Below, one piece after another: positions 9,140 to 21,450 of a stretch of DNA of 64,000 bases (position 1 is the first letter of the stretch; each line of letters begins with the position of its first letter). Position numbers and translations under genes: made by a program. Source of the stretch: Tetraselmis striata. Lineage: Eukaryota; Chlorophyta; Chlorodendrophyceae; Chlorodendrales; Chlorodendraceae. The notes beneath the pieces were generated by a model. It was not told the DNA's origin and did not search any database. It saw nothing but the letters and a program-made list of their open reading frames with translations. The stretch lies in NCBI GenBank assembly GCA_006384855.1, contig VCJN01001113.1:18675-82674 (forward strand), read 5' to 3'.

Positions 9140-9144
9140 AAGTG

Positions 9145-9627
9145 TGTCGGAGGGGATTGTCAAAGTGATGGCTGAGTGGCACTGTCACTGATGGGGGGAG
9201 AGTCGGCGAGAGTCGGCGTGCACGCGTCGAATCACGTCGAGTGCCAGCAAGCAAGGTGCGAGCTGGAAAGGCAAAGGGCTGCTATGAGCCGTGGGCGATG
9301 GACGATAGGTAGTCGCTGTCGCCGTGGTGATGGCTGAGTGGCACTGTCACGTGAGAGAAAGGGTGAGTCGGAATATTTCTGGAAAAGCAGTTGACTGAAT
9401 TACAAGGAGCCGAGGCTGGCAATTTATACCAGCCGACTAGGTGTCACTTAGAACGGACACCTCTCCGTCTAAGAAGGCCAACTGGCAAAGATGCCTAGGT
9501 GCCATGCTTTGGTGCCGTACTGCTGCCATAAGGTCCAAATTAGGCACAGGTACGGCAGCCAGAAAAATGCGGAATTTCACAGAGAGAAAAAGCGGATTCA
9601 GGGTACCGGGGTACCCTGGGTCCAACA
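9145..9627 (-). repeat. 3' LTR of the copia element
   Basis: This 483-bp copy is nearly identical to 15998-16484. It starts TGTCGG and ends CCAACA in plus-strand reading, and AAGTG lies immediately outside it. Confidence 0.93.
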
Positions 9628-9634
9628 CCCCTCC

Positions 9635-12600
9635 TCATCCTGTGGAATCCCGCGGGCGCAAGACTGATGGCGGCAGAGGCGCAACACGGGGCTCCTCGGA
9701 TGACCCCATTAGGAAAGCGCGGAAACGAAGAAAGGTAGTCAGCGGCAGCGCCTTAGTGAAGAAATCGGCGAGCTGGTCTGCGGTAGGCGTGTAGTGCATG
9801 TCGATGACGCCATCTTGGCAGAGTTGGGCTGCATACTGAAACTTGAGGTCAATGTGGCGTTGCGCGCTTGTAATCATACCATGCTTCACCTGAACGATGC
9901 ACGCTTGATTGTCCTCGCATACCCGCACTGGGTCAGTGGTGGGGTGGTGGAGCTGGCGCAGAAGAACGCGAATAAACGCCAGACATTTGCATGCCATGCA
10001 GAGCGCCACGAACTCCGCCTCGGCAGTAGACATGGCCACGCTCTTCTGAACTTGCGCGCGGTAGGCGACTGGGGTGCCATACACCAGGGCAAGATAGCCG
10101 GTAGTGGAGCGGCGTTTGGGCGCGAAGGTTGCCCAGTCAGCGTCCACAAAAAAGAGGAAGTCAGGTGCCTCGTTGTCCAGTTGCTTCCGGAAAATGAGGC
10201 CATGGTTGGGGGTGCCCTTGAGGTAGCGCAGCACTGATACGGCGATCTGCCAGTGACGCTCGGTGGGGGACGCCATGTAGGCGCACAGGCGGCCGACCAC
10301 AAACGCAATGTCCGGTTGTGATGCCACAGCCAGCCAGATAAGGCTACCAACAAGATTGGGATAGGAAAAGAGTTTGGTGTCGAGGGGCGTGCCTGTAGGG
10401 TCATGAAAATCGGTATCCGGTGTGCAGGGTAGGCGGCGAGGCGCGCACGCCGCCATGTTGAAGGTAGTCAAGATGTCGTTGATGTACTTCTCCTGATGGA
10501 GGTGGAGCACGCCTCCCGGCTTGCGATCAATGGCCATGCCAAGAAGCCATGTGCATAGGCCGTCAGTAGTTGCATCAAACGTAGAGAAGAGAGAAGTCTG
10601 AAAACGCTCCCGGATGTCGGACGACGGGGAGGTAGCCAGCATGATGTCATCGACGTAGACGCATAGGATGGCCAGCAGCGATTTATCGACTGCGAGCAGC
10701 GTCCATACGCCTGGATCGCACTCGGAGCTGACGAAGCCGAAGTCACGGAGAAAAGAAGAAAAGCGCACAAACCACGCCATGGGTGCCTGCGGCAGGCCAT
10801 AGAGTGCCTTAACGAGTTTCCAAGCCTGATCCTTGCGGCCGTAGCCGGGGGGGGGGGGGGGGGGGGGTAGACGTAGACATCTTCATCGAGGTTAGCGTTG
10901 AGGAAAGCACAGGTGACGTCGAACTGGTACAGCTCCCAGTCAAGTTGAATTGCGAGAGCAATAGTGGTGCGCAAGGCGATGAAGCTGACGACTGGGGCAT
11001 AGGTCTTAGTGTCATCATAGTTCTCGCCGGCAGTAAGTTGATCGCCGCGGACAACCACTCTGGCCTTGCGCTTGATGAGGTTGCCATCCTTGTCTTGTTT
11101 CTCCGCAAAGGCCCACGCCGTCTGTATGATGATTGCTGATGGGTTGTCACGGCGAAGGTCAGGAATGCTGATCCAAACAAAGGTCTCCATCTTGGTGATA
11201 GAGGCGATCTCTCGGTCCATGGAATGTTTCCAGTCATCGGGGTGATTGCTGGAGATGGCCTCCTTGTAGTTGCGCGGCGCCTTGGACACGCGGACAGTGG
11301 GTGCTGGCAGGGCGAGGGCGGCCATCTGCGCCGGGTAGGGGCGCACAACCTCCGCGATGGCGGATGCTACCAGCTTGGGGTGGTAGTCGCTAAGGTCGAC
11401 ATAAGGAGAAGATATGTGCGCTGATCCACTGGAGTGAGGAGTTGGCAGTGCTGTGGCGTCCCCCTCCTGATGACGCGGAAGATACGTCCCTTCTGGCTGC
11501 GGAGGTGGGGGCCCCTCCTGCGCGGAGGCAAGCGCCGCTGACGGCGGCATGGGTGGCGGCATGGGAGGTGGCGCGTGGGGCCCCTCCTGCTGGTCCAAGG
11601 GTTGCGGCTCATCCATCAGGTGGTCATCGTCGGGGAGCTGGAAGACTGGCATAGAGAGTGCCGGTGTGCTGGAGAAGGGTCGTGTCACCTCATCAAAGAT
11701 GACATCGCGTGTAACCGTTTCGCGCCTAGTAGCCGGGTTGTATATGCGGTAGCCGGCGGAGTCCTCATGGTGGCCAACGTAGATGCCCGGCCAGGATTTA
11801 GGTGTCATTTTTCCTTTGGCTGCCCGCATAGTCACAGGTATGTTGACCCAGGCCACACAGCCGAAAACATGCAGGTTGGCGAGGTCGGGTTTGCGACCGG
11901 TCATCAGCGTGTAAGGTATGGCGTTGACGGACGAGCTCCACTGGCGGTTGCAGAGATAGACGGCGTGAAGATACGCCCAGTCCCAGAAGGTGCGGTCGAG
12001 GCCGGCGTGGAGAAGCATGGCTTGGGCACACTCACCGATAGTGCGGAAAGAGCGCTCCGCCAGGCATGCCTGATGATGAGAGTGGGATGCGGTAAAGTCC
12101 AGCGCGATGTTGAGGTCTGCACATGCTTGACGAAACGGAGAGCCGGTATAAACCGCGCTGCGATCGGCACGTATGCGTTGAACGGTGTGACCCATGCCGA
12201 GAACCGCCGCATGAAGTTGATGGACGGCGCGGACGGCCTCGTCCTTGGTGCGCATGGTGATCGCTACCTTTACTCCAGTGTAGGAATCCACCGCGCCGAA
12301 AACATGCTGCGCGCCAGTGACCGACGGACAAGGTCCCTTCCAGTCGTCGATGACCACGAGCATGTATGGTGCCTCCGCGCGTGGGGAGGGCTGACGGTTG
12401 ACTGACTGCTGGTGGGATTTGGCCTGAATGCACGCTGGGCATATGGCCTCCGGGGCAGATCCGAGTTTCGGGATGCCGATGGCATGTTGTTGGGTGAGCT
12501 CCATGTGGCGCGCGCAGCGATGACCAAGTCGAAGATGCCACAGGGAGTAGGAGGCCGTTGGAGATGGCAGTGCCATGACCCCATGAGACGGATCGCGGAT

Positions 12601-15600
12601 GGGAAGGAGCTTGATGCCGTACAGGCCTGTGGTGCCGGGGTAGGGCTGAAGGTGGATGACTGCGCCATCTGGGGTGATCATGCTGTTGAGGAGGCGGCTG
12701 AAGTAGAAAGAGTAGCCCTGCATGCTGAGTTGATGGGTGCTGAGGAGGCGGCTGATGTTGGTGAGACCGACACCGGAGGTGATGTCAGGATTATGGTAAC
12801 AGTCTCGTGCCACAATGGTATGTGGCATGCCTGTGATGTCTAGTGTTGGCGCCAGCGTGGTGCCGATGCCGACTGCCGGTTGCCCGAAACCGCCCACCAG
12901 AAATTGCTCCGCCGCAGGAATGTCCATGTAGTATATGTAGTCGGTGCGGTGGGCATTGACGTGAGAGGATGCTCCCGAGTCGATGAGCACCCATGCTTCG
13001 CCATCGCTGATGATGAGGGTGCCGTATGACGTGTGGCAGACAGTGATGACGGCTGGGGAAGGGGCGGCGCCCGAGACAGCCTTGATGTAGTTGCGCATGA
13101 CGTTGAGATCGATGACCCCGCCGAGAAGTTTGCGCAGTGTCGCCTCAGAAAGGTGAGATGTGGGCAGATCATCCAAGGTGAAGCCCATGGCGCGAGCGCG
13201 TAGAGCTGCAGGGGGCTCGCACCATCTGCCGTTGTCTGCCCAGGACCAGGGGCCATCATGTTCGTAGACCATGCCAGTGCCCGGCTGACCGTTGGTTTGC
13301 ATGCGAAAAGCGTATGAGCCGGGGCGGGCGACGAACTTCGGAAAGTAGTCAGTTGTCACCACTGGAGTAAAGTGGGGGAATTCGGATATACAGAGGTCCC
13401 ACGCGCAGGGGCCGGGGTCGGTGAGCTCGATGGCGTTGATGTTGTTGATGTAGTCCTGAACGTCGGTTTGCGAAGCGATATTGGTCCACAGGAGGGTGTC
13501 GCGGTGAGCCGCCGAGCCGCAGGCGGTCGCACGCAGGATGTTGCCGGTGCCAAGTGAGGAGAGTATCTCCGGGAAGTCCAGCGCGCCTGGAACATTCTCC
13601 ACAATGTACCGCACCGGTGTGGGCTGTGTAGTCAGGTAGAAACGGATGAAACTGATGACGGAAGCAAAGGCCCGAGAGCGATGGTCCTGCCAGCCAAGGC
13701 GTGAGCCAGCGCGCGACCATGGTTGACACGGTGGGCCTGACACGATGAGGGTGACCGGACGCAGGGTCTCCAGCTCCGCGATAGTGATGTTGTTGACGTC
13801 CATGGGGGTCCTGGCATGACAGTCCTGAAATGCTGAAGGGGGCAGACGGTCCGGGTACTTGTCGCTGATGACATGTAGGCGATGCGTCCACATAGTACGA
13901 GCCTCGGGCGACGGGTCGGCGCCGGTGATCTTGTGGATGGTGAAGCCGTATTCTACCAGAGCCTCTACTTCAGATGCCGATGGGCCATGGCAGGGCGAAA
14001 AGAGATGGTCGATGACCAGAGAGGTTGGCAGCGGGAGGATCGGCGCAGCGGTGAGGAGCGGTAGTGTTGGTGGCGGGTCGCCACGCAGGGCGCCTTGCTC
14101 CGCATGAAGAATGTGGGATGCCAACGCCGCCGAGGCGGGAAATGTGGGTGAAGTGAGGCATAGGGGTTGGGCTGGGGTGGGGACGGGGTGGGGACGTTGC
14201 CAATTGATGTCGAATAGGTGGATGGGGGGATCGAGGGAGTAGGGATGGGAGTAAACGTTCCAGCGGGGGGGGATGTCGGGGGTATCGAAGATCGGGAAGG
14301 CGTCGGGGTGAGGGCGGGAGCGGTGAACATGCCATGAGTGTGAGAACGGGGACTCGAAGTCGGCATAAGAGTCGGAGTAGGGGACGTGCCAGGGGTCATG
14401 TAAGTCATCCTCCGCGCTGTCCTCGCCCTCCCCCTCCTGTGCTCCGGTGTCCGCCCCTCCTGGGGCGGTAGTGTTGCAGGTGAGCATGATAGGCAGGCTG
14501 CTGTGGTGTTGTGCTGATGGGGACACTCCCACGAACGGGTAGGCCTCCTGGTGTCCCGTCGGCCGCTGGGTGAAGGTGTCGCTGGCCTGCTGATGACCCG
14601 GGTGCTGATGTCCAGCCGGGGAGACGAAGCCGACCGGCTGTTGATGACGTTGCATGCCGTCGTTGCCGCCCTGGTTTGTCCAACGCTGCTGCCGCTGGGG
14701 CCTGTCCTGATTGTTGCGGTTGTCGTTGTAGAAAGGCTGGCCTGGCGGCGCCCGATGGCGGTAGTTGTCGCGCGGGTGGTGGCCATAGTTGGTGTTGACG
14801 CGACGCTCCGCAGGCGCGCGCTGATGGCGGTCATAGCGAGGGTTGGTCATGGTGCTGGTCGGCGTGGTGTCATCCAGGATACGCAGGCCATTGGCATGGC
14901 GCCTGGCCACACACTGCTGCTGGGTATGGCCCGGACGGTCACACCGTCTGCAGACAACGCTGGGCCCGGTGGTGTGCTGCGGGTCCCTGGGGCTGTAGGA
15001 ATTAATGAGGTTTGGCGGGCACGCGCGGAGGCGCTGCTGACGCTGACGCTTGCGCGCCTCCATGTTCTGTCCGGCGCTGATGATGGTCGCCAGCTTCTCG
15101 TTGACAGTGGCCGCCGAGGTGGTGGTGTCGACGATATGATCGTAGTCTGGGTGAAGGCCTGGGATGAGGTAGTTGGCAGCCACGTACTCGAAGGTCCACT
15201 GGCCATGTGCCTTGTTCAGCAGATTCCAGAGGTTCTGGTAGCGACGAACATACACCTGAACCGGCTCATTCGGGAGCTGGCCCGCTGTGATCTCTTCCTC
15301 CAAGCGCTTACGCTCCTCCATGGCTGAGCCCTGGAGCTCAGTAAGAAGAGCCTTCCATGCGGTATATCCACACTTCCTGGAATCCATGCTGATGCTGTTG
15401 ACGATGGCTAGTGCCATGGGATAATGGGCCGTTGCGTGGCGTAGGGCGGCCAGAAGGATCATTTGCTCCTGACGGGTGCCTTTGCCCTTGGTGGTGTCCA
15501 AGTAGCCAGCGCTGCCGAGAGCGATCTTGATGGCTTGAGCGTTGTCTCGTGTAGAGATGGCGTTGTCCCAGATGGGGACGTTCTTGAGGTCGAGTGTCGG

Positions 15601-15804
15601 CTTCACCGCAGCTGGCTTGATATGCTGGACGACCTCGGAGTCATCGTCTGACGCCCCGTCCATGCTGAAGGCGTCGTCAGAACTGGTATCATCACGGAAG
15701 TCAGGAGGTGGTGGGGCGTGGCCAGGGTCGGTCTTGATCGCACTCTGCCGAGCCAGATTGGCCAGGGGGGTGTTCATCATGCCGGTGTTGATGCTGGTAG
15801 ACAT
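9635..15804 (-). CDS. Copia Gag-DNMT-Pol polyprotein, frameshifted at a poly(G) run
   Basis: The first frame runs from the ATG at 15804 to 10468 (1778 codons) and the second covers about 10868-9635. In order: acidic N-terminus; Gag; zinc knuckle CRRCDRPGHTQQQC (about residue 283); proline-rich linker; DNMT (about 598-910); protease WVLIDSGASSHV (DSG 942-944); integrase HHCC (LGH...CPAC) and core with VIDDW (Asp1153), IRADRSAVYTG and HHQACLAERSF; reverse transcriptase (TKTYAPVVSF, QFDVTCAFLNANLDEDVYVY, then YVDDIMLA in the second frame); RNase H (FFVDADWA, AMSTAEAEF, HIDLKFQYA). The break lies in the codons before the expected YPPPGYGRKDQAW, where 20 or so C residues (G on the plus strand, about 10848-10868) replace a few proline codons. 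Homopolymer slippage or a sequencing error both explain it. The start was chosen as the first ATG inside the element; the frame extends upstream into the LTR without a further need. Confidence 0.9.
13075..14013 (-). other. Cytosine-C5 DNA methyltransferase domain inside the copia polyprotein
   Basis: Roughly 310 residues carry C5-methyltransferase motifs in order: a motif-I-like LFSPCHG (about 601-607, weaker than the usual FxGxG), motif IV SGPPCQPWSRAG with the catalytic Cys at residue 693, motif VI IVENVPGA (Glu736), a motif-VIII-like AHRDTLLWTN, and a terminal ALRARAMGF ... LRKLLGGVIDLNVM resembling motifs IX-X (GG where GN is usual). It is in frame with Gag before it and protease after it, so it would be made as part of the polyprotein. 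Expected chemistry is transfer of a methyl group from S-adenosylmethionine to cytosine in DNA. Sequence preference cannot be read from the sequence. Confidence 0.88.
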
Positions 15805-15997
15805 TGCTAAGGGATGGCGCACTTGTGCTTGAGGATGTATAACTGTAGGGGTGGGCGGGTGGGAAGAAAAAAAACTCGTCGCACGGCGCCGTCGACAGTC
15901 GAAAGTTGTCGAGGGTCGAGATACACGCAGGTTGAAGCCTCTGGCAGGCGTCGAGCACGGGGCAAGACGTCGAACCAAAGGAGAGGGCCCAAAAACC

Positions 15998-16484
15998 TGT
16001 CGGAGGGGATTGTCGAAGTGATGGCTGAGTGACACTGTCACTGATGGGGGGAGAGTCGGCGCGCGAGAGTCGGCGTGCACGCGTCGAATCACGTCGAGTG
16101 CCAGCAAGCAAGGTGCGAGCTGGAAAGGCAAAGGGCTGCTATGAGCCGTGGGCGATGGACGATAGGTAGTCGCTGTCGCCGTGGTGATGGCTGAGTGGCA
16201 CTGTCACGAGAGAGAAAGGGTGAGTCGGAATATTTCTGGAAAAGCAGTTGACTGAATTACAAGGAGCCGAGGCTGGCAATTTATACCAGCCGACTAGGTG
16301 TCACTTAGAACGGACACCTCTCCGTCTAAGAAGGCCAACTGGCAAAGATGCCTAGGTGCCATGCTTTGGTGCCGTACTGCTGCCATAAGGTCCAAATTAG
16401 GCACAGGTACGGCAGCCAGAAAAATGCGGAATTTCACAGAGAGAAAAAGCGGATTCAGGGTACCGGGGTACCCTGGGTCCAACA
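15998..16484 (-). repeat. 5' LTR of the copia element
   Basis: This 487-bp LTR should hold the promoter for the minus-strand element. It differs from the other LTR by a CGCG-type 4-bp indel near 16065 and about three base changes. Confidence 0.93.
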
Positions 16485-16489
16485 AAGTG

Positions 16490-17071: not shown

Positions 17072-17488
17072 GCATTTCAAGGGAGGTAGGCAGGCAAGAT
17101 TCGCCAAAAAGTTCGCAAGCTTAGTTACACGGAAATGGCGGGGTACTTGTGGCAAAGAGCCACTAAGAGGAAGGGAGGGCGGGTTGTGCAGGCGCAGGAG
17201 GCCAGCACAAAACTAAGAGAGTGGTCCAGTCTAGCGGACGATGATGGTTTGATAAGATTTGATGGGTACATGGGTGACACCCGTTTTCGCCATGGGCGGC
17301 ACGCAAAGTGCCTTACATCGGCTTTTCAATGCTAAAGCACTAGTGCCAACGCACCAGCGCTAAAGCAAAGTACTGGTCTCGACCCCCGCATACCCTAGGT
17401 GCATGCATGGAGGGGCAAAGTGAACCGCAAGAACACAGCTCTAAACATTTCAAGGGAGATGGGCGGGGAAGAGTTGCCACCTTGGTCT

Positions 17489-18621
17489 TTAGGACTGCGG
17501 AGGGGGGCGGGGCGGCATCCGACGGAGCGGGGGCGACGCCGAGAATAAGGCTGCGAAGGACCACATGGGGGGAGCGAGCGAGCCAAACAGAAGCGCCGCG
17601 GCACGGGTGGGATGCGTCGTCGGGTCGATGTACTCGTTGATTACTGCATAATTGCGGGCCCAACCGTCCCAGTGGCGGATTTTGTCCAGAGGCACACCTG
17701 CTGCATTTGCGCCACATGCCGCGCCCTTTCGTAAGGAGTGCGAGGTCCACACGAATCCTTTGGGGGGGAGGGGGGGGGCTCGATTGATGCGGGCGACGGC
17801 CCGCGTTAGCCAGTCGCCGAGGGCGGAGGCTTTCCATGTGAGGGGCGGTGTAGCCATGTCGCCAGGGAGCGCCCAGAATCGGTCCGGTTGCTTGGCGGAG
17901 GGGGTTGCCCGCCGGAACGCTGCGTCGCGGTAAGCGATAAAGCGGCAAAGAAGGGCTGTCCACGCGGGCACGGCGGTGGCAGGGATTTGGAGTAGGGGCT
18001 TGAACCCGTCTCGACGCCTGCGATGTCCCCCCTTCTCGCGGTTGACGAGGAGGGTGATGTTATGGGTGTCCACGGCCATGTCGCGGAGTCGACAGGAGAC
18101 GCCGGACTCGCCACGGGAGTAATACACGAAGGTTGAGCATACCGCGGCGCCCTCGCGGAGGATGGTGCCGTAGCCGGGAGTGGTCATGGGAAGGTTAGCA
18201 AGGACGTCAAGGATGTTGGTAGTGATGAGGGGGGCAAGGGGGGCGCTCCGCAGCTCCTCGCTAGTCTTGAGCTGGCGGATTTGAAGCGCCCACTTCATGT
18301 CGCCGGTGGCTGTATACCGGTGGCCGGGGCGTCGTCCCAACCGGTGTGACGCAGGAAGGTGTTGGTGGCTGAGAGGTAGGGTTGTGGAGAGCCGGCACCG
18401 ATGGTGCCGCGCTCCGCGATCCATGCGAGGTAGCGGACACAGGTAGCCTCGGTGCAGTCCGGGGGATAGATGCCTTACTCGTCGATGCAAAACTCGGCGA
18501 AGAGACGAATCTTGCCTTCGTAGTTGGAATAGGTGCCGGCCGTGGGCGAGGTAGTTAGCAAATTGAGCACCTTCGCGCCCCAATCCTCTGTGCCGTAGAG
18601 AGTCTCGATGCTACCTCCCAT
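17489..18621 (-). pseudogene. Tyrosine recombinase of YR element copy 1 (broken)
   Basis: The ATG at 18621 opens a frame with a core-binding domain (YEGKIRLFAEFCID, VRYLAWIAERGTIGAGS, LSATNTFLRHTG). It is cut by a TAA at 18477-18475 and a frameshift near 18310-18330. The catalytic part follows: FVYYSRGESGVSCRLRD and WTSHSLRKGAACGANAAGV with the conserved Arg, then IRHWDGW and the nucleophile Tyr in NEYIDP. The fold is that of phage-integrase-type recombinases used by DIRS-like retroelements and Cryptons. With a stop and a frameshift it cannot make full protein. Confidence 0.75.
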
Positions 18622-20306: not shown

Positions 20307-20669
20307 GTGGTAGCAGCGCGAGCGAAGGGTGGAAGGTTTACTACCGTTTCCGAAGGCCTGGCCACTCTGCACGGTACGAAACCGCGAGTTACTGTTGTGC
20401 AGGCAAGAGGCCAGCACACAACTAAGAGAATGGTCCTGTCTAGCGGACGATGATGGTTTTATAAGATTTGATGGGTACGGGGCGGGTGACCGCCATTTTC
20501 GCCGTAGAGGGCGGCACGCAAAGTGCCGTACATCGGCTTTTCCGTGTTGCTAAAGCACTAGCTAGTGCCAAAGCACCGGCGCTAAAGCACAATACCGATG
20601 TCGACCCCCGCATACCCTAGCTAGGTGCAGGGAGGGAACAAGAAAACCCCAAGAACACAGCTCTTAACA

Positions 20670-21450
20670 GATAAAGGTTGTAACTGAATCCTTACATGAA
20701 CGACGAGCTGCCAGCTAATGTCGTCGCGTACGTCCATGTATGTGCAGCACGCCAGCACATAACCCCGATGTCAGCCTATCCCGTATCGTATACCCCGTCC
20801 TAGACTCCCAGTCTTATATGATTGTCTTACAATATTATTAGTCATCATTGTGCACAAAAGTATGGCGGCTTCGCCGCTATGAGAAGAGGAGGCGGGGCCC
20901 TTATCTTTGTATACCGTTCATCGATTCGCATATATTCTTGTGCACTAGTACCCGTAGTTCGTATATAGATGTCGTAAGGATTACATAGGTTTCGTAATGT
21001 ATCGTTGTATAACCCTAGAAAAGGGCGGACCACGGATAGCAATGGCTCGGGTCGGGCACGGAGGGGCAGAACTGCACGAAAAGCTCGATTAATTGCTGAG
21101 TCGAGATGGTAAATGCGAAGAAAGACGTAGAAGAAGACGTCTTTGTACTGTTCAAAACTTGTTTACGGGGTGTCCTCCCTTTCCCTAACCGCTTTTCGGC
21201 TACCGTGCTACTCAGTGGCACGAGATACTAGGTACCTGTTGTTGCGCCCTTTTTGGGTGCAACACGAGTAGACATAAAAGCAGCCATAACAGCTGAGCCT
21301 GCCATCTTCCAGTTTCGCTGCGTTACACGCAACGATTGACTATCTCGTAATATGTTGCGGGCAGGGTCACCCCTGGTTGTTCAAGACCACACCCGGCTCA
21401 TCATCCGTGTGTGAAATTCTTATCCGTACGTCGGTGCGTTCCCGTGTCAA
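20670..21450. other. Spacer between two divergent YR elements
   Basis: No gene is seen. The segment at about 21280-21330 (AAGCAGCCATAACA ... CCATCTTCCAGTTTCGCTGC) recurs inverted near 62895-62945, so it belongs to a dispersed repeat, possibly the 5' end of YR copy 2. Confidence 0.5.

Follow-up and report, generated by a model that had tools for sequence, protein, structure and literature searches.

Retrotransposons are targets of DNA methylation, and elements that carry a methyltransferase of their own therefore invert the usual story. DNMT3-type DNA methyltransferases (DNMTs) borne by retrotransposons are already a known kind, with cases in long interspersed nuclear elements (LINEs), DIRS elements and Gypsy elements. 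As given in the available text of the 2018 study by de Mendoza et al. (PMC5890265), KnitGypsy-Dnmt3 of Klebsormidium nitens is a DNMT3 within the polyprotein of a long terminal repeat (LTR) retrotransposon, intronless and with a Ka/Ks below 0.2; SymbioDIRS-Dnmt3 from Symbiodinium was shown to perform de novo CG methylation in yeast; activity results for KnitGypsy and SymbioLINE were inconclusive; and methylation of complementary DNA (cDNA) by retrotransposon DNMTs was proposed. Here we describe a predicted Ty1/copia LTR retrotransposon with a DNMT3-like domain beside Gag, found in a 64,000-nucleotide stretch of the genome of the green alga Tetraselmis striata (contig VCJN01001113.1). This whole stretch is referred to as the window; all coordinates are positions in it, and the element lies on its minus strand.

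Like KnitGypsy-Dnmt3 as described there, the window element has a DNMT3-type domain under purifying selection in the LTR polyprotein of a green-lineage alga; unlike it (a Gypsy element of a streptophyte host, with the domain in Pol), the window element is copia, a comparison made by description only. With the published SymbioDIRS-Dnmt3 and SymbioLINE-Dnmt it shares a retrotransposon-borne C5 methyltransferase, whereas those Symbiodinium elements are described as replicating by the DIRS or LINE route in a dinoflagellate host, the LINE enzymes being an orphan lineage. The replication module of KnitGypsy or SymbioDIRS (Gypsy or DIRS) is absent from the window element, which has a copia RVT_2 reverse transcriptase and copia domain order. 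A single sentence in the available text of PMC12344493 places some DNMT3 members in ‘LTR Copia’ and DIRS elements; it cites the 2018 paper, which reports Gypsy, and that text gives no sequence, species or structure to compare with the window. Our search, which excluded preprints and supplements, found no publication that mentions a copia DNMT in Tetraselmis or other chlorophytes. As far as the searches show, the novel features are the Gag-proximal copia architecture, the presence of the domain in three chlorophyte copia families, the indications of recent movement and the existence of derivatives whose active site is dead.

We give roughly even odds (probability about 0.5) to the reading that the domain methylates the element's own newly made cDNA, which is favoured mainly because the catalytic residues are retained in complete copies. 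The domain would be made and packaged together with Gag, and its Gag-adjacent position suggests such packaging in the particle; the element's protease would then free or present it. Using S-adenosylmethionine (AdoMet), it would methylate cytosines of the cDNA in the particle or integration complex, and the marks on the incoming copy might shield it from sensing or establish its chromatin state. Autonomous partners could mobilise deletion derivatives, giving them protease, integrase and methylation in trans. More tentatively, and with the odds somewhat against it, the DNMT3-like methyltransferase may in green algae be a module owned by retrotransposons: it would have moved from one to the other of Gypsy and copia instead of being recaptured from the host, been fixed beside Gag before the Tetraselmis copia families diverged, and be a working enzyme only in autonomous elements, with dead-enzyme derivatives living off it in trans. 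If so, cytosine methylation of their own cDNA would be a normal part of these elements' life cycle.

The element spans 7,340 bp (9145–16484), as delimited by its LTRs, target site duplication and domains. Its 5′ LTR (487 bp; 15998–16484) and 3′ LTR (483 bp; 9145–9627) are 98.6% identical, their alignment of 487 columns having 3 mismatches and 4 gaps, and the element is bordered on either side by AAGTG (9140–9144 and 16485–16489); the initial annotation had described near-identical LTRs and this duplication, and both were confirmed. An open frame of 1,911 codons (10468–16203; likely start methionine at 15804) encodes Gag, DNMT, protease, integrase and the first part of the reverse transcriptase. 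As had been claimed, DNMT motifs share one frame with Gag and protease: GPPCQPWS, YIVENVP, SAAHRDT, LRKLLGG and DSGASSH all lie within it. The Gag part (14062–15804, borders by inspection) contains a CCHC zinc knuckle recognised by eye (CRRCDRPGHTQQQC, 14911–14952) and is followed by the DNMT3-like domain (13078–14031) and then by the aspartic protease motif VLIDSGASSH (12961–12990), also recognised by eye; a Pfam scan of the frame gave no protease match, and the placement is by the DSGASSH motif only. Pfam identified the integrase (11674–12606), comprising a GAG-pre-integrase zinc part, an rve core slightly below its cut-off (29.5 against 32.6 bits) and an SH3-like domain; the first and last are above theirs, the retroviral SH3 domain being a strong match. 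Downstream of these lie RVT_2 matches (E values of 6.9e-18 and 1.3e-20), with the first part of the reverse transcriptase at 10858–11130. The window copy is frameshifted in a proline-rich stretch of the reverse transcriptase, which continues in another frame (9635–10882), which holds its second part with YVDD (10646–10663) and RNase H (motif at 10130–10150, by eye). The order protease–integrase–reverse transcriptase–RNase H, in which protease and RNase H are positioned by motifs alone, together with the RVT_2-type reverse transcriptase and LTRs with a 5-bp duplication, identifies the predicted element as Ty1/copia.

A PF00145 search, proposed with the initial annotation, returned a match of 40.2 bits against a curated cut-off of 22 (E value 3.5e-9 for the whole frame and 3.6e-10 for the excised domain), with an alignment spanning only profile positions 45–116 of 324. 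This match and the presence of the motif IV Cys and motif VI Glu mark the domain, at the level of sequence, as a homologue in the C5-cytosine methyltransferase family. Copy alignments locate a degenerate motif I region (HLFSPCHGPSA, 13975–14019), motif IV GPPCQPWS with the catalytic Cys (13714–13737), motif VI YIVENVP with the catalytic Glu (13588–13608) and a motif VIII-like SAAHRDT (13495–13515); by alignment, a motif X-like segment, LRKLLGGVIDLN, ends in LRKLLGG (13102–13137).

Searching with the single sequence ranked HaeIII methylase first (1.3e-4), then chains of the tRNA C38 methyltransferase DNMT2 (0.0026–0.0056), ahead of DNMT3B (0.029). That ranking, and the position of the domain past the CCHC knuckle, towards the protease, would suit an enzyme that methylates RNA in the manner of DNMT2, either the packaged genomic RNA or the tRNA primer. 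A profile built with relatives and searched against the PDB, and comparison of the predicted fold (318 residues modelled), both put DNMT3 clearly ahead of DNMT2, which makes RNA methylation improbable. They also overturn the single-sequence ranking, and DNMT2 or a bacterial methylase was rejected as the nearest class. The closest solved relatives of the predicted domain are thus DNMT3s, a class call made from profiles and fold, as the trees described below hold retroelement-type and viral sequences only.

The domain query gave at least 122 matches in the window's own assembly (G000; 224 Mb, 2,903 contigs). Over the domain, the closest proteins, P0001 and P0002 (99% and 95% identical), are Tetstr1/TSEL gene models, which account for 11 of 13 and 30 of 30 matches in two protein searches; we take the Tetstr1 label to denote Tetraselmis striata. 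Domain order and these proteins uphold the placement of a DNMT between Gag and protease in a copia polyprotein of a green-algal genome. Three further copies (on C444, C1014 and C427) have uninterrupted frames of 2,085–2,162 codons. Twenty further elements, all selected for having the DNMT, were taken with their flanks (rows 2–22 of the match list minus C397): 18 have two LTR matches; of those, perfect 5-bp target site duplications, each one different, occur in 15, and identical LTRs in four. The DNMT-bearing copies therefore look recently moved. The possibility that this copy alone carries the domain had been raised with the initial annotation; instead, of 71 copies with an integrase (identity at least 60%, each element counted once, both source listings being lower bounds), 57 have a DNMT match no more than 3 kb upstream of it. 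Among the 14 DNMT-less integrase copies, two were read: in both, about 33 bases separate Gag residue 739 from integrase residue 1275, which means that DNMT and protease are gone together with the integrase zinc part. That the domain is a one-off, unselected insertion or an artefact of assembly is hardly conceivable given the genome-wide matches, the 20 further copies, their distinct target sites and purifying selection; copy number and target sites led us to discard it.

Both the catalytic Cys and the catalytic Glu are present in all 30 best-scoring copies (the window copy and L028–L056), including old copies at 83–91% identity. Three other copies (L061, L063 and L066) all lack the same stretch of about 320 bp from the reverse transcriptase/RNase H region; their LTRs are 100%, 99.8% and 99.6% identical, and since they look recent despite this deletion they were likely mobilised in trans.

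The DNMT domain is under purifying selection across copies of the family. Under a codon model fitting transitions, omega (dN/dS, a value that here contains neutral decay following insertion) was 0.42 across 21 copies and 0.49 across 30, and omega = 1 was rejected in both sets (P = 1.6e-7 and 1.3e-14, respectively); it was 0.41 in the 22 of the 30 copies without stops. Values below 1 across the DNMT in more genomic copies had been put forward as a check with the initial annotation, and the copies agree with that expectation. For other segments omega was 0.54 in Gag and 0.29 in integrase, with omega = 1 again rejected (P = 2.6e-7 and 1.2e-7), and, as point estimates only, 0.44 in protease and 0.63 and 0.37 in the two reverse transcriptase parts, the second computed on a fast tree. 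Copies lacking a segment or rearranged in it were left out of the codon tests (L076 for protease, L075 for integrase and reverse transcriptase, L062 for Gag, and L061, L063, L066 and L075 for the second reverse transcriptase part). Judged by its sequences, the window family thus matches the kind of retrotransposon-borne DNMT described by de Mendoza et al.: its DNMT shares a frame with retrotransposon proteins, is present in many copies and is under purifying selection.

At least 40 genome matches stop at query residues 219–221 and form a deletion subfamily. Two of its annotated proteins, P0008 and P0010, pass from this point directly into the last part of the integrase region and so lack the protease, the integrase core and the final stretch of the DNMT. 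We read 20 of the 40 DNMT pieces (L077–L096). The motif VI Glu is replaced by Gln in all 20, as in all eight aligned annotated proteins of the subfamily, and the motif IV Cys by Leu in 14. Set against the 30 of 30 intact best-scoring copies, this indicates that the elements without the active-site residues are those that look non-autonomous, which fits an enzyme that autonomous elements may need or supply; it shows just as much that a derivative can spread with a dead domain. The frame through the dead domain is open in 19 of the 20 pieces, for which omega was 0.69, below 1 at P = 0.015. For the function of the enzyme, the subfamily serves as a natural control.

Several observations weigh against methylation of the element's own cDNA. 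Motif I of canonical C5 methyltransferases is an AdoMet-binding FxGxG loop (LFGGxxxG). The window domain lacks this mark of a canonical active enzyme: all 50 copies read have a degenerate motif I (HLFSPCHGPSA and near variants), which in the window family is 4 residues longer than in Gypsy DNMTs, although the predicted model shows a strand and helix at this part with good confidence. Old copies L052 and L053 are without the HR motif, and, outside the deletion subfamily and at the level of gene models only, annotated proteins P0004 and P0007 are gapped at motifs IV and VI, respectively. In-frame stops occur in 8 of the 30 copies, the omegas above are averages across old and new branches, and the difference over the same residues between the deletion pieces (0.69) and the 30 best-scoring copies (0.48) is between point estimates only. 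There are many derivatives whose active site is dead, and catalysis in cis is therefore unneeded for spread. A large copia family of the same genome, with 1,561-codon frames, has no DNMT match in those frames among the matches listed. Finally, a CG methylation footprint is not visible, because there is neither CpG depletion (observed/expected 0.91 in the element and 0.96–0.98 in the rest of the window) nor an excess of singleton C>T changes at CG (0.054 per site, compared with 0.065 at CHG and 0.039 at CHH).

The degenerate motif I, the missing CpG decay and the open, still constrained frame of the dead domain in derivatives would all be expected if the domain were kept for a structural or nucleic-acid-binding job, as a Gag extension that retains RNA or cDNA within the particle and not as a working methyltransferase. 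We think this unlikely: pure binding would not need the Cys and Glu that are kept in all of the best-scoring copies, old ones included, and that recur in a second copia family at 38% identity and almost without exception in the Gypsy relatives described next.

A search with a Gypsy-type relative, which scored the 7,992 candidates sharing most words, found 114 proteins whose Pfam labels are Gypsy-type reverse transcriptase and integrase, often with a PHD finger. They include sequences from Chlamydomonas eustigma, Haematococcus lacustris and Closterium, most others being metagenomic (the Gypsy-type set is P0012, P0013 and P0044–P0156). P0012, P0013 and P0155 were scanned and are of Gypsy type, the P0012 piece being without reverse transcriptase; PF00145 was below cut-off in P0012 and gave no match in P0013. 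These chlorophyte and metagenomic elements share the DNMT3-like domain family with the window copia element and differ from it in their Gypsy reverse transcriptase, in the frequent PHD finger and, in P0155 and P0013, in the location of the domain between RNase H and integrase. In 102 aligned Gypsy-type pieces the catalytic Cys is present in 102 and the Glu in 101, and in 81 the residue preceding the Cys is Glu and not Pro.

Outside copia, no closer relative was found than P0155, which is 36% identical to the copia DNMT. In a 313-column tree of 43 sequences (5 from the window family, 4 other pieces from this genome, 23 of the 102 Gypsy-type pieces and 11 viral methylases as root), both copia DNMTs included group at 100/100 with the Gypsy-borne P0155 as sister (97.8/99) and L101, from another long frame of this genome, next (64.4/80). 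P0155 took the same position (0.96) in an earlier tree with all 102 Gypsy-type pieces and without L099–L102. Because both trees hold retroelement-type and viral sequences only, we infer a passage of the domain from Gypsy to copia and do not read it directly from them. Protein searches restricted to relatives sharing short words turned up no DNMT-carrying copia polyprotein in other organisms. A viral source of the domain was considered and rejected: viral contigs contain 25 + 1 loci of distant methylases (23–43% identity), and 11 of the 12 translated served as outgroup only.

Within the Tetraselmis genome, a second copia family, with an integrase 38–39% identical to that of the window element, has a DNMT upstream of the integrase, the two lying in frames of equal stated length on nine contigs (C1901, C193, C104, C1860, C1383, C920, C2371, C1409 and C1588). 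The one copy read (L099) has a DNMT 38% identical to the window's and retains Cys and Glu. A third copia family, at eight places (C1430, C997, C1266, C1711, C1956, C1086, C2465 and C1379), has frames of 2,144–2,147 codons with RVT_2 and a DNMT that is 25–26% identical to that of L100, a copy of a further family described below; its DNMT-to-reverse transcriptase distance is about that of the window element. As the second and third families have the DNMT at a matching place, judged from the integrase or reverse transcriptase side, the capture seems older than the divergence of at least the first two copia families, unless the module was exchanged among them. The initial annotation had treated the domain as a fresh capture. 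This was not supported: with two other diverged copia families bearing it and the nearest non-copia relative found in Gypsy, the domain looks like an old acquisition that may have been handed from one retroelement to another. Given the apparently old association, copies that look recently mobile and the natural control, the purpose of retrotransposon DNMTs, left open by the 2018 work, becomes testable in a unicellular green alga.

Another DNMT family has frames of up to about 1,771 codons (C1431:73929–74729, copy L100; C470, C569, C598, C1425, C1687, C1713 and others). It has at least 40 matches at 94–100% identity over all or all but one of 267 query residues; L100 has PCP where the window family has PCQ. 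A PF00078 reverse transcriptase search (best 150 of 3,001 candidates) assigned no reverse transcriptase to this family. DNMT-like domains also occur in very long frames (C2687:20069–21037, copy L101, C653 and C2172; C2232:265236–266069, copy L102, and C488), L102 having no Pfam match, and in frames of 2,295–2,299 codons (C663, C1197, C2750, C205 and C1051). With these further domains in very long frames, the genome may hold five or more DNMT-bearing element families.

Several other long-frame families of this genome have DNMT-like domains, as if the activity had paid repeatedly. This might be so if the enzyme worked in trans, with the host genome or rival elements as its target; by silencing competitors or copies of its own family it could adjust copy number or protect the host. 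A host-benefit role is discussed in the available text of de Mendoza et al. (PMC5890265). We rate such action as quite unlikely, since selection on a trans effect common to all copies is weak in theory and the window family shows no CpG decay.

Single-frame C5 methylases of 323–341 codons are present on C1993, C776 (at 80949), C1647, C2337, C355, C1455, C2272 and C1230 (three places). They match most or all of PF00145 (E values of 3e-42 to 5e-30), unlike the retroelement domains, and C776 and C1230 also hold copies of the 1,561-codon copia family.

Elsewhere in the window, a 373-codon frame (17492–18610, minus strand) has a tyrosine-recombinase-like end, HSLRKGAACGANAAGVPLDKIRHW, with a weak PF00589 match (E value 0.047, below cut-off), and possibly belongs to a DIRS or Crypton-type element. 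Near it are two repeat pairs, 17194–17269 with 20403–20478 and 17340–17455 with 20562–20677.
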